A stretch of DNA of 56,183 bases from an uncultured Methanobrevibacter sp. (GTDB taxonomy: Archaea; Methanobacteriota; Methanobacteria; Methanobacteriales; Methanobacteriaceae): assembly GCA_900314605.1 (NCBI GenBank), contig OMVX01000017.1, positions 1 to 56,183 on the forward strand, written 5' to 3'. This document shows positions 4,602-48,707 of the stretch, piece after piece. Position 1 is the stretch's first letter; each line of letters begins with the position of its first letter. Made by a program: the position numbers and the translations under genes. The notes beneath the pieces were generated by a model. The model did not search any database. It saw only the letters and a list, made by a program, of their open reading frames with translations, and had not been told where the DNA came from.

Positions 4602-5472
4602 ATATTTCTAAGTTTTCTAGCTTAGCTCTTTTAAGTAGAGTTTCACTATTTAACTTGTATAGTTCATCTATAAGCCTTGTTCTAAATGATCCAGAACCAA
4701 GGGCATTGTTTTTTATGTATTCAGCAGAAAGTTCTCCAGCTATTCCTATTGAAAGAGCACCAGTTATTGTTGCAAGTAATATATCATCATTTGAACCTAT
4801 AAATCCTCCAATTATTCCAGTTAACATACATCCAGAACCAGTAATACGGCTCATGAGAGGGTCTCCATTTTTTATGGTGTATACATTTTTACCATCTGAT
4901 ATTATATCAATATGGCCTGATGCCATAACTACTACATTAATCTTTTCTGCTAATTCTTTTACTATTCTACCGTTGACTTTTATATTTTCTTTTGAGATTA
5001 TATCCTCAGGGGCAACATCTACACCTTTTACAGTTTCTTCATTTTCTATATCTATATTATATTCTTTTGCAAGGATTTTTATCTCTGACATATTTCCCCT
5101 TATAACACTTATACTATAGTTATTAATTATTTCAACTGAGGTATTTGTTCTAAGTTCACTTGCTCCTGCTCCTACAGGGTCAAATATTACAGGTTTATAT
5201 AAATTATCTGCTTCATCTAGACTTGCATACATACCTTCTATTTGACTTTTTGTTAAGGTTCCAATATTTATTACAAGGCTATCATTAATATTTACTATGT
5301 CTTTTTGTTCTTGAGGGTCTTCACTCATTAAGGGACTTGCACCTATTGCAAGTAATCCATTAGCAACGTCATTAACAGTTACATAGTTTGTAATACATTG
5401 GGTTAAAGGATTTTTTTCTTTTAGATTTTTTAATGTTTGAGGAATTTTATTTAATATTTCACTACTATTCAT
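4600..5472 (-). CDS. thiM: Hydroxyethylthiazole kinase
   Basis: Phosphorylates 4-methyl-5-hydroxyethylthiazole, a thiamine salvage step that feeds ThiE. A ribokinase-fold protein of 290 residues with motifs TQCITNYVTVNDVANG, GASPLMSED, FDPVGAGAS, RGNMSEI and the catalytic/anion-hole segment GDPLMSRITGSGCMLTG. The last segment contains the conserved GSGCM with the base-catalytic Cys. The start ATG at 5472 follows a weak GTGGT. It is the first gene of a probable thiM-thiE minus-strand unit. The C-terminal tail beyond the core is slightly long, and its 3' nucleotides are echoed by degenerate repeats downstream. Confidence 0.95.
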   Translation of the reverse strand: MNSSEILNKIPQTLKNLKEKNPLTQCITNYVTVNDVANGLLAIGASPLMSEDPQEQKDIVNINDSLVINIGTLTKSQIEGMYASLDEADNLYKPVIFDPVGAGASELRTNTSVEIINNYSISVIRGNMSEIKILAKEYNIDIENEETVKGVDVAPEDIISKENIKVNGRIVKELAEKINVVVMASGHIDIISDGKNVYTIKNGDPLMSRITGSGCMLTGIIGGFIGSNDDILLATITGALSIGIAGELSAEYIKNNALGSGSFRTRLIDELYKLNSETLLKRAKLENLEI

Positions 5473-5676
5473 TATACCACACTATAATTTTACATTTTAT
5501 CTATTTTCAATTTTTTAGCAATATTTAATATTTTTTTTTCATTTTTTTTTAAATTATTTATTATAATATATATTTATGTTAATTTTTACTCTTTTAAAAA
5601 TTTTAATAAAAGTCTTATTTAATAGTAAGATTTATAAGTAAAAAATCATATAATTTTATATGTTATTATATTTTAT

Positions 5677-5749
5677 GCCTCAGTGGCTCAGTCGGTAGAG
5701 CGCCAGACTTGTAATCTGGTGGTCGGGGGTTCAATTCCCCCCTGGGGCT
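5677..5749 (+). tRNA. tRNA-Thr (anticodon TGT)
   Basis: A complete cloverleaf: acceptor GCCTCAG pairs with CTGGGGC, anticodon stem CCAGA/TCTGG encloses loop CTTGTAA with anticodon TGT, and T-stem GGGGG/CCCCC encloses TTCAATT. The CCA end is not encoded. It is first in a cluster of five tRNAs. Confidence 0.95.
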
Positions 5750-5951
5750 TATATTATTGCTTATTTATTTATTAGATTATTATATTTTTATTATTTTCTT
5801 AAATATTAGCTAAATTTTCTTAGTTTTTTATTTGAATAATAATTTTTTATACTATTATTAATAAATTAAAAGAAGGTTTATTTTTTTTAGTATTTTTAAT
5901 AAAAAAATATTATTTTTTTAAATTTCAAGAAAATTATCTAAAATCATAAGC

Positions 5952-5961
5952 TTTATATATA
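5952..5961 (+). promoter_or_regulatory. TATA box for the tRNA-Pro/tRNA-Tyr pair
   Basis: TTTATATATA lies about 65-70 bases upstream of tRNA-Pro, in an otherwise featureless AT-rich gap. A start about 25 bases downstream would give a short 5' leader removed by RNase P. Confidence 0.5.
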
Positions 5962-6023
5962 ATGTTAAACTTACATATCATACGATATTTATTACTTTAA
6001 GTAATATTTTAATCTATTAATTA

Positions 6024-6099
<76 letters not shown>

Positions 6100-6103
6100 C
6101 TGT

Positions 6104-6177
<74 letters not shown>

Positions 6178-6238
6178 TTTTACTTTTGTTTTTCTAATTT
6201 ATGGAAATTTTTCTAATTTTCTATAATATTAGCAAACC

Positions 6239-6248
6239 TTTATATATG
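6239..6248 (+). promoter_or_regulatory. TATA box for tRNA-Asp
   Basis: TTTATATATG lies about 65-74 bases upstream of tRNA-Asp, the same spacing as the TATA box before tRNA-Pro. This supports both being real stable-RNA promoters. Confidence 0.5.
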
Positions 6249-6312
6249 AGGGTAACAAAAGTATTTATGTTACATATTATTAAATCTAATATGTGAAATT
6301 ATATTTGTATGT

Positions 6313-6384
6313 GCCTTGGTGGTGTAGGGGCTATCATGTGGGCCTGTCGAGCCCGCGACTCGGGTTCAAATCCCGGCCAAGGCG
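6313..6384 (+). tRNA. tRNA-Asp (anticodon GTC)
   Basis: Acceptor GCCTTGG pairs with CCAAGGC. The anticodon arm GGGC-CTGTCGA-GCCC carries GTC, and the discriminator is G, as expected for aspartate identity. No CCA is encoded. Confidence 0.94.
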
Positions 6385-6475
6385 CTTTACATTAATTTCA
6401 TTTTGTTTTTTTCTTATAAGATTTAGATATGTATACAAATTTTGTATTGGAAAATTCCAAAATTTATTATTTTAA

Positions 6476-6549
<74 letters not shown>

Positions 6550-6616
6550 TTTTTCTTGTTTTTTATATAAATTTATCGTTTTTTCAATAATCTTTTTCAT
6601 TATGGAGGAAATTAAT

Positions 6617-30670: not shown

Positions 30671-30991
30671 TTTTTGCTTATATTTTATAGTACTTTTATT
30701 CTTTAAAAAGAAGTAGATTATATTTTTTAAAATTTAGTAAGTATTAATTTTAGAAGATTTTTATTAGTTTTTTTTTTAAAATTAATATATTATTTATTTT
30801 TAAAATATATTTTATTAGATTTTTTTTTAAAATTTAGTATACTATTTAGTTTTAGAAAGATTTTTATTAGATTTTTTAAAAGTTAGTATAGTATTTAGTT
30901 TTAGAAGTAATTTTATTTAATTTTTTGAATTTATTCATAATTTTAAATAAAAAAAGTAGGGATTAAAAAAAGTAGAGATTAAATTAAAAAT
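30671..30991. repeat. T-rich degenerate tandem repeats between convergent genes
   Basis: Between about 30723 and 30920 lie four imperfect units of about 50 bases. Each has a T6-T9 run, AAAATTTAGTATA-type sequence, TTTAGTTTTAGAA and TTTTTATTAGA. Nothing else is seen in this 321-base gap. The T-runs on the plus strand would terminate rimI transcripts before the convergent zinc-ribbon gene. Confidence 0.6.
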
Positions 30992-34196: not shown

Positions 34197-35135
34197 TTAA
34201 TTGAATATTTTTAATGTAGATATAATCTCACTTTCTACCTTGTTAAGATTTGCTTCATTTTTCTCAGATGTTGTAAATATTATATCATATTCACTTTCTC
34301 CATTTACAAATCCTATATCTCTGGTTATATTTCCATTAGCAGTATAAGTTACATTATATCCAGTGTGATTACCAAGTTTTGCTAAATCATTATAGGTAAC
34401 AGTTCCTTCAATATTATATGCTATATTATTCACTGCTGCTTGTTGTAAATCTTCAATACTTGCACCGGCATAACCATTTTCAGATAGACTTGTAATAGCA
34501 AATTTTACAGTAACATTATCCTTTGAAACTTCTAAAAGATAGTCAGTATTATTAATTTTTTGATAATTATTAGGTATACTTACAGAATAATCAGTTACAT
34601 TATAAGTAGTAAATCCAGAATCATTAGTGCTTATATTAGAATTACCAAATACTCCTATAATAATAATCACTATAAAAATTGCAAGTAAAATTAATCCCCC
34701 ATATATTATTATACGTTTATTTTTTTCACTTACACTTGGAGTATTAATCTCTTTTTTAGAAGAAGGTTTTTCCTTAAAAAGATTACTTTTTTCTTTCTTT
34801 TCAACTTTATTAGCTTGTTGAACTTTTTTCTCAGTTGGTTGAATTTTTTTCTCAGTCTGTTGAACTTTTTTCTCAGTTTTCGGAACTTTTTTTACAGTTG
34901 GTTGAACCTTTTTTTCAGTATTTTTAGTTTTTTCATAGGTAAATATTCTTCCAAGACTAGTGTCTTTTTTAACATTACCTTTTTCTTTTTTTGCTTCTTT
35001 TTCATTTCTAAAAATACTATCCGGTGTCTTGTCATTAAGTATTATTTTCTCTTCAGGTAGTTTTGTATGACAATCAACACAGTATTCCTCATTATTAATA
35101 TGTTCTTTACCACATTTTGGACAATATTTTGCCAT
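34197..35135 (-). CDS. Zinc-ribbon membrane protein with basic repeats and extracytoplasmic domain
   Basis: 312 residues: zinc ribbon CPKCGKEHINNEEYCVDCH (5-23), a strongly basic Lys/Gln/Thr-rich region with about five repeats of TEKK-V/I-Q-PT/QT (about 73-110), one membrane helix (IIIYGGLILLAIFIVIIIIGVFG, about 141-163), then an outside domain of about 145 residues. The outside domain (YSVSIPNNYQKINN ... GYNVTYTANGNITRDIGFVNG ... IISTLKIF) resembles PsbP-like domains found in many methanobacterial surface proteins. Function is unknown. AGGGAT precedes the ATG. It shares its whole layout with the next gene on the strand, whose repeats are acidic instead of basic. Confidence 0.75.
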   Translation of the reverse strand: MAKYCPKCGKEHINNEEYCVDCHTKLPEEKIILNDKTPDSIFRNEKEAKKEKGNVKKDTSLGRIFTYEKTKNTEKKVQPTVKKVPKTEKKVQQTEKKIQPTEKKVQQANKVEKKEKSNLFKEKPSSKKEINTPSVSEKNKRIIIYGGLILLAIFIVIIIIGVFGNSNISTNDSGFTTYNVTDYSVSIPNNYQKINNTDYLLEVSKDNVTVKFAITSLSENGYAGASIEDLQQAAVNNIAYNIEGTVTYNDLAKLGNHTGYNVTYTANGNITRDIGFVNGESEYDIIFTTSEKNEANLNKVESEIISTLKIFN

Positions 35136-35304: not shown

Positions 35305-36974
35305 TCAGTAGAATGTTAAACTTCTCTTTAATTGATTAATATCCTTATTAAATGAATCTATATCATCAGATATGAATAAGAATGCATATTCTTTATTATC
35401 TTTAATAAAGCCTATTGTACGATATTCATAATTATCAGTACCCTCTTTACTTGTAACATCATATACTTTTACATTATTAACTTTTTGTGTTGTTGCCTTT
35501 TTAACTAAAGCTCCACTTCGAATATCTAATTCTTCTGTTGCCCCTTTTATCTCTGATAATTTTCGCCCTGAAGCCTTTGATTGATAAACACTTAGAAGTA
35601 CTTTATGTTTATCTTCCTTAGATTTAAAACTACCAATAACATTTTGATCTGTAGTATTATATTTTTCCCAGGTAGATGGTAGTTTAAATGATATAACATT
35701 GTTTGTATATTCTCCTGGTTCTGCATTACTTACACTTAAGTAATTTAAGGAGTTTTCATCAATGTATTGGATTGTTACTGTTCCAACTATTGCAACTAGT
35801 AAAAGAACACTTAAAAAGAGTATTGCATTTTTATGAACATATCTAAAGGAATTTTTATCAATTTTATTATCATCATTATCTATATCGTCATTAAAAAGTT
35901 TTCCATTGAACAAACCTATAGATATTTTTTTCTTTACTTTCTGGATTTTTGTTTTTTCTTTATATTTTTTTAAGCTTTTTTTCTCAGAGCTATAATCATC
36001 ATATGTTTCATCATCGTTGACTTCCTCTCTATCATAGTCATACATAGATTCTTGCCCTGAAGGATATCCTAGAATTGTTTCTGCATTTATATGGTCTAGG
36101 TTTTCTATTCCTTTTGTTATTATTTCTTCTAGGTTGTCGTTGTTTTCTGTTTGTTCTTGTGTGTGTTCGATAGGTATGTATTGGTCTTCGGTTTCTAGGT
36201 TTTCTATTTTTCTATTTCTTCTAGGTTGTCGTTGTTTTCTGTTTGTTCTTGTGTGTGTTCGATAGGTATGTATTGGTCTTCTGGTTCTAGGTTTTCTATT
36301 TCTTTTGTTATTATTTCTTCTAGGTTGTCGTTGTTTTCTGTTTGTTCTTGTGTGTGTTCGATAGGTATGTATTGGTCTTCTGGTTCTAGGTTTTCTGTTT
36401 GTTCTTGTGTGTGTTCGATAGGTATGTATTGGTCTTCTGGTTCTTCAGGTGTGTGTTCAACGTAAATGTATCCGTTATCTGGTTCTAGGTTTTCTGGTTC
36501 TTCAGGTGTGTGTTCAACGTAAATGTATCCGTTATCTGCTTCTAGATCTTCTGTTTCGGAGGGGATTGTTTCTTCTAAATAATAATTATCCTCAAAGATT
36601 TCATCTTGACTATGATCTACTATAATATAGTCATCATATTTTCCTTCAATTTTTTCTTGTAAACTAGGGTTTTTTTCATCTTCCCTATTTATAAAATTAG
36701 AATTTGATGTAGGTTCTCTTATAAATGCATTTAAAGTATCCTCTGCAATATCTTCATTTGTTTTAGTTTCTTCAGGTGTTTCTAGAAACTTTTCACTATC
36801 ATGATTTGCAGATGATTTTAAAGTTGGTTTTTGCAAATTTTCAATATTATCATTTATTATTTCTTCTGAATTTTCGTCTTTTTCTAAAGCGTCTTTTAAA
36901 TTTGCACCACATGATTTACAGGATGTCTCATCCTCATTATTTTCTGTTCCACATTCAGGACATTTAATCTTCAA
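35305..36974 (-). pseudogene. Frameshifted zinc-ribbon surface protein with acidic repeats (possibly phase-variable)
   Basis: One gene read in two frames. The upstream part (36974-36204, TTG start after GGTG) encodes a zinc ribbon CPECGTENNEDETSCKSCG and an acidic repeat region, then stops at TAG 36206-36204. The repeat continues in another frame (IENLETEDQYIPIEHTQEQT, HINAETILGY) straight into the downstream part (ATG 36045) with a basic segment, a membrane helix (AILFLSVLLLVAIVGTVTIQYI) and an outside PsbP-like domain. Repeat spacing is 99 bases in the neighbouring unit but 92 at the break. A single added A in the A5 tract (plus-strand T5, 36207-36211) would restore one 556-residue protein. 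It could be phase variation, decay or a sequencing error. Confidence 0.8.
36130..36545. repeat. Coding repeat array in the zinc-ribbon surface gene
   Basis: On the minus strand there are four nearly identical units encoding QYIPIEHTQEQTEN (plus-strand landmark GATAGGTATGTATTGG at 36169, 36261, 36360 and 36417; spacings 92, 99 and 57). Two units encode GYIYVEHTPEEPEN. Near identity at silent positions indicates recent expansion. This is a protein repeat, not a CRISPR: there are no unique spacers. Confidence 0.9.
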
Positions 36975-37476
36975 AAAACAACACCATTTATTTATTTGAT
37001 AATTTATTTTTCAAAAATTTTTTAGTAAGTGTTTTTATTTTATTGTTCATTTTATTTAAATACTATTTATTTTATTTTCTTTTTATTTTTTATCCATTCA
37101 AAATAGAATTTTCATTTTTTAATAAGTATTTTTTTAGTTTCTAATTTATTATATGTCTTTATTTTTATCTAGATTAGATTAGTATTTTTTTAATATTTGT
37201 AATACTTATGAAAATATGGGGTATTATAAAACAAGTTTGATTATTTAGGTAAAACTCCTTATTAATATTTATATTATTGTTTTAATAACAAATATAAATT
37301 ATATGGATTTAAATTTAAATTTAAGAAAAAGTATTTTTTTGAATTTTAATAAATTGTATTAACATTATCCTTTTTGAAGTTTAATTAATTAAAAAAAGTT
37401 AATTCATAAAATTTTAATAAATAAAAATTAAATTAAAAATGCTATACAAAAAAATAAGATTTGAATTTAATGAGAA
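36975..37476. other. AT-rich intergenic region, no gene seen
   Basis: About 500 bases between the frameshifted surface gene and the UbiB-family gene. It should contain the promoter of the surface gene (minus strand), but no clear TATA box, repeat or RNA structure stood out. Confidence 0.5.
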
Positions 37477-48169: not shown

Positions 48170-48707
48170 ATCTATTATTAACCTATTTTCCATTTTTTTT
48201 TAAACAGCTTTTATATTTTTTCTAGGTTTTATTTTTTATTATTTTTTTTAAATAGAGTTATTATTTTTTTTAGGCATTATTTTTTATTATTTTTTTTTTA
48301 AATAAGGTTATTTTTTTTAGTTTTTATTTTCAATTATTTTTTTAAACAGCTTTTATAATTTTTTTCATTTTTTTATGGTGTTTAAATCTTTTTTTTAAAG
48401 TAAATAATGATTATTTAAATCTAAATTTTATAATACTTTCAGTTAATAAAATAGTAATTCAATATTTTTATCTAATAATTAAAGGTATTTTCATAATCTT
48501 TATAAATAATATAACATAGAGTATCTATAGTTACTAAATTATATGGATTAATTATATTTTTTTTAGTAACTACAAGAAGGTATTTTATACCTATTTATAA
48601 TTCGTATGGGTTAATTTAAGTGTAATTTAACTTATACATTTGTATTTAACTGTTGCTAATTATAACAGCAGTTTATTTAAATACATAGATTTTATGGAGG
48701 AATATAT
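48170..48707. other. T-rich repeats and dyads between carB and the secreted protein gene
   Basis: From about 48193 to 48375 lie three or four degenerate units of about 50-60 bases with T8-T10 runs (plus strand), suitable as a multiple U-tract terminator for carAB. Further on are two dyads: 48528-48572 (11-base arms) and the hairpin GGTATTTTATACC at 48579-48591. Both precede the gene at 48708. Confidence 0.55.
48528..48572. promoter_or_regulatory. Perfect 11-base inverted repeat upstream of the secreted protein gene
   Basis: TAGTTACTAAA (48528-48538) is exactly reverse-complemented by TTTAGTAACTA (48562-48572) around a 23-base AT-rich centre. It lies about 135-180 bases before the ATG at 48708. 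It could be an operator or an RNA hairpin if transcribed. Confidence 0.45.

Follow-up and report, generated by a model that had tools for sequence, protein, structure and literature searches.

Frame break in a coding repeat linker separates the zinc ribbon from the membrane and PsbP-fold parts of a Methanobrevibacter gene

Two neighboring minus-strand reading frames (36974-36204 and 36045-35305) in a 56,183-nucleotide stretch of DNA from an uncultured Methanobrevibacter species, referred to here as the window, are the halves of one gene whose frame is broken inside a coding repeat array. The locus is most likely a single gene for a single-pass membrane protein, with a zinc ribbon inside the cell joined through a long, acidic, repetitive linker to a membrane helix and, outside, a PsbP-fold domain. 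We estimate a probability of about 0.5 that the break is a real, recent and possibly polymorphic frameshift in a fast-evolving coding repeat linker, and not a selected switch. The evidence comes from one consensus allele in one draft assembly (2.37 Mb, 103 contigs, 27% G+C), the one genome of this species analysed. The parts of the locus are as follows.

36974-36204, minus strand: upstream half ORF, TTG start, 256 aa, with the zinc ribbon and acidic repeat linker; TAG stop at 36206-36204
36045-35305, minus strand: downstream ORF, ATG start, 246 aa, with the membrane helix and outer domain
36982..36985, minus strand: GGTG ribosome-binding site, 7 bases upstream of the TTG, conserved in four species
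36897..36974, minus strand: zinc ribbon, CxxC-CxxC (PF13240, E 1.3e-5, 25.3 bits against a cutoff of 25)
36113..36557, minus strand: coding repeat array of 57-bp and 99-bp units, T-poor and with C-ending codons
35305..36203, minus strand: downstream half in the -1 frame, with the remaining array, membrane helix and outer domain
35773..35835, minus strand: predicted membrane helix (hydrophobic stretch and AlphaFold helix 64-90)
35308..35733, minus strand: PsbP-fold outer domain (AlphaFold model and Foldseek)
34197..35135, minus strand: adjoining intact paralogue with a K-rich repeat linker

Sequence searches reached little beyond the zinc ribbon: the outer domain had no match in Pfam, a PDB search by sequence returned zinc ribbons and similar entries only, and searches of NCBIfam and of viral contigs gave nothing informative. 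An AlphaFold model of the downstream ORF, of moderate confidence (domain pLDDT about 70-83), had PsbP proteins as its best Foldseek matches (E 4e-7, probability 1.00), which supports the PsbP-like label that an earlier note had given the outer domain from the DNA letters. With an N-terminal zinc ribbon and an outer domain of PsbP/Mog1 type, the gene belongs with the zinc ribbon - linker - TM - PsbP-fold proteins, although the continuous frame expected of such a protein is absent from the window gene and present in three congeners. The predicted helix would place the ribbon and linker inside the cell and the PsbP-like domain outside. Proteins of the same domain order and fold are found in other Methanobacteriales (Methanothermobacter and many Methanobacteriaceae); most of those elsewhere have short linkers and intact frames, whereas linkers in this genus are long and, in some copies, repetitive. 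The same layout was recovered in the adjoining paralogue, as had been claimed: its zinc ribbon is weak (PF13240 E 0.0011, below the cutoff), its linker is a K-rich 21/42-bp repeat, and it is homologous to the window gene over the helix and outer domain (hhalign E 1.2e-11).

The acidic repeat that precedes the TAG at 36206-36204 carries on seamlessly in the -1 frame until it enters the second ORF; the -1 frame is open for 379 codons and reaches back to 36444, which bears out the continuity described in the earlier note. A 99-bp array was detected by TRF (score 481). The GAACACACAC landmarks lie at 36359, 36260 and 36168, so that a spacing of 99 is followed by one of 92, and the seven missing bases that had been reported are indeed missing. 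The break and the repeats that flank it are located as follows.

36200..36215, minus strand: break point, ATAGAAAA in two tandem copies, containing the A5 tract (36211-36207) and the TAG; the unit is 92 bp, not 99
36213..36281, minus strand: 69-bp direct repeat, copy 1
36121..36189, minus strand: 69-bp direct repeat, copy 2, located 92 bases downstream of copy 1 and 100% identical to it

The longest exact repeats at the locus measure 85, 79 and 69 bp. Because the 57- and 99-bp units are multiples of three, their ordinary gain or loss alters the length of the linker and not its frame; the 92-bp unit alone is able to shift the frame, by -7n for n copies, and only n = 0 or 3 leaves the gene in frame. 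Toggling of the protein by loss or gain of a repeat, as the earlier note proposed, is not expected from the ordinary units and could come only from the 92-bp one. The composition of the array is also unusual: within 36207-36515, 25 of 26 codons end in C, against 19% over all ORFs of the window and no more than 58% in the other coding arrays examined, and T makes up 10% of 36113-36557. Elsewhere in the window, AT-rich tandem repeats of 48-50 bp, apparently intergenic, occur at 30714-30926 and 48194-48365.

Comparison with the congeners shows what the unbroken gene looks like. In all three analysed it is a single open frame of 522, 424 and 394 codons from stop to stop, and the unusual TTG start and GGTG ribosome site are kept in all four species; the joining of the two window ORFs into one ancestral chain is thereby confirmed. 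Both ORFs also lie at the coordinates first given for them. The same neighboring paralogue is present at the loci of two congeners (L007 and L008), and in a sister genome (G002, locus L025) a UbiB-type kinase gene, this gene, the paralogue and an aldo/keto reductase gene follow one another in the order seen in the window. The downstream ORF and its orthologues share 49-60% identity. Against the nearest sister, the downstream half has a dN of 0.162 and a dS of 0.54 (ratio 0.30), compared with a dN of 0.297 and a dS of 1.08 (ratio 0.28) for a pair of intact genes; it is thus still under purifying selection, and we found no further stops or lesions in its open frame. These data indicate that the break is recent or that the downstream half is still expressed. 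A decayed pseudogene is excluded by the ratio of 0.30 and the open downstream frame, and a long-standing split within the genus by the three whole congeners; a broken frame shared by relatives, with decayed downstream coding, which the earlier note named as a refuting outcome, was not seen in these congeners. The comparison of frame and repeat number among relatives that the note had proposed showed linkers that differ in each species, and no congener in the other frame state at the same site.

More than one route could have produced the 92-bp unit. The earlier note had described a one-base frame error, repairable by one extra A; relative to the 99-bp parent unit, the actual difference is a net change of -7 together with two substitutions within about 25 bases of the break. 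The best models that allow one deletion and one tandem duplication are -9 and +2 (in the A run) or -15 and +8 (ATAGAAAA doubled); they fit equally well, leave over the same two substitutions, and contain deletions (-9 or -15) that are in-frame by themselves. The A5 tract may be part of the mutation event. It does not qualify as a special slippery tract, since, of all A runs in the gene with at least five bases, it ranks with the shortest, several others being A6 or A7, and since A/T runs of at least five bases occur throughout the window (12.8 per kb); a homopolymer-driven switch at this site, as first suggested, is accordingly not borne out. Frame breaks in coding repeats are a known kind of event, and we infer that recent slippage or recombination in the tandem-repeat linker would have left one unit at 92 bp instead of 99. 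Recombination between the 69-bp perfect copies 92 bases apart would remove the odd unit; as it is the sole frame-shifting unit and is bounded by these copies, its loss in this way would be the most natural reverse step.

The foregoing presumes that the 92-bp allele is real in cells, which the genome at large suggests it is. It is nevertheless conceivable, although we think it unlikely, that the organism itself has an unbroken gene and that the 92-bp unit is an artifact of reads mishandled within a repeat whose exact copies reach 85 bp: exact repeats of 85, 79 and 69 bp are awkward for short k-mers, the changes cluster within about 40 bases, the two substitutions near the break could mean a locally poor consensus, and the genome is a draft. 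However, no frameshift was found in any of the 230 conserved genes checked in this genome, which cover ~239 kb of coding sequence, bounding the chance of an error in a locus of this size at about 2% and making a routine sequencing error unlikely. Across 693 kb of this genome, every other repeat array that is clearly coding keeps to one frame, even though some exceed 1 kb and reach about 19 copies. Moreover, the 39-base stretch that holds the break has no second copy in the same 693 kb, where exact matches extend to a maximum of ~16 bases, which means that array units were not simply mis-joined here. As a separate observation from this genome, a gene at locus L104 (12102-11320), 80% identical to its counterpart in genome G001 and presumably TatD-like, as judged by eye, has one in-frame stop in mid-gene.

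A selected phase variation, in which the number of out-of-phase 92-bp units among the 99-bp ones, or the short tract at the break, toggles the membrane and outside domains, is in our judgment distinctly unlikely. Such an archaeal switch by unit phase would alternate, as recombination between the 69-bp copies adds or removes a 92-bp unit, between a surface protein anchored in the membrane and a soluble protein with the zinc ribbon, and the long linkers of the family would be expected to break repeatedly. The 92-base offset of the 69-bp perfect copies, with its -7n rule, would suit this scheme, as would the selection on the downstream half. The locus also shares with the phase-variable contingency genes of bacteria, surface genes with coding simple-sequence repeats (PMC11868660, PMC2831843), a membrane or surface protein frame broken within a coding repeat that could expand or contract. 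In contrast to those genes, it has 57- and 99-bp units with one odd 92-bp unit and no long short-unit tract. Only one allele of the species has been seen, with no variant; the other unit lengths keep the frame, the tract is short and ordinary, and the break lies mid-gene, far from the 5′ end toward which longer A/T tracts tend to be placed (homopolymer survey, PMC2831843). A conserved switching element is also lacking, the linkers being species-specific and the short-linker relatives intact. Our searches of the open-access literature turned up no account of phase variation driven by repeats in Methanobrevibacter.

A second linker break within the genus would also fit such switching. In the sister genome G002 (locus L025), the K-rich paralogue is broken in its linker, just after its own 54-bp repeat array, as follows.

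5055-6083 and 6068-6616 (L025): split K-rich paralogue, with a -1 shift located at an A6 tract or close to it; both halves look conserved

This break alone proves little, given the higher background of that genome (about 2 frameshifts among 155 genes tested). The genus has two broken copies, this paralogue and the window gene, and no other copy has a repeat array as strong as theirs. Across the family, short-linker relatives occur in 85 genomes and keep an intact frame in 84, the remaining one being cut by a contig end, and splits occur in 2 of 8 long-linker copies against 0 of 85 short-linker ones (Fisher p 0.007, or p 0.08 when the gene that prompted the comparison is left out). A non-repetitive family member is split after the helix in two Methanothermobacter-type genomes (G046 and G047; loci L196 and L197), whose loci are 99.4% identical and in which both halves persist, while five other Methanothermobacter-type genomes have the gene intact; repeats are therefore not the sole route to a break. 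A family-wide tendency to split was not seen among the 84 intact short-linker relatives, with splits confined to the two long-linker copies and this one Methanothermobacter lineage. Breaks thus happen occasionally and, in this genus, within the copies with the strongest arrays, although the numbers are small.

We also considered recoding, in which ribosomes would slip by -1 at GAA AAA TAG as the lysine tRNA pairs anew with AAA, so that part of the product would be the full-length chain. An AAA that follows an A just before the stop permits perfect re-pairing, the downstream frame is the -1 frame and has not decayed, and the three splits observed in the family all shift to the -1 frame, a weak point when only two directions are possible (p about 0.25). 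In archaea, fucA1 of Sulfolobus solfataricus, encoding an alpha-L-fucosidase, is recoded at an A-AAA-AAT heptamer (PMC8211752) and resembles the window gene in its two overlapping frames, their -1 relation and the A run at the junction. In that gene, however, the heptamer is complete, a stem-loop is predicted and two strains share the position of the break (PMC8211752), whereas sister copies of the window gene are intact. The site here does not complete an X-XXY-YYZ heptamer, GAA AAA TAG permitting only one-tRNA slippage, and no stimulatory RNA structure was found (minimum free energy -0.3 kcal/mol, z +0.5). Nor is the site conserved, the three orthologues being open throughout and requiring no slip; on balance we give recoding little credence. 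Least credible of all is that a zinc-ribbon fragment and a membrane/PsbP fragment are made and act apart as two functional proteins, for although the ATG at 36045 is in frame (no other start codon in this frame was found from the TAG to position 35990) and both halves persist after the split in the two close Methanothermobacter-type genomes, no strong Shine-Dalgarno site precedes this ATG, and the repeat code that continues in frame upstream of it marks the split as recent and not built for reinitiation.

Returning to a recent frameshift in the repeat linker, ordinary decoding of this allele would be expected to give only a soluble zinc-ribbon/linker fragment of 256 residues, and the membrane and outside parts would be lost unless the frame were recovered. 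The locus shows that, in this family, coding repeats in the linker can interrupt the reading frame with the domains on either side remaining conserved. It also cautions that apparent half-genes annotated in methanogens may belong to a single gene. If alleles in both frames were found in one population, the gene would illustrate how repeats drive phase variation of a methanogen membrane protein.
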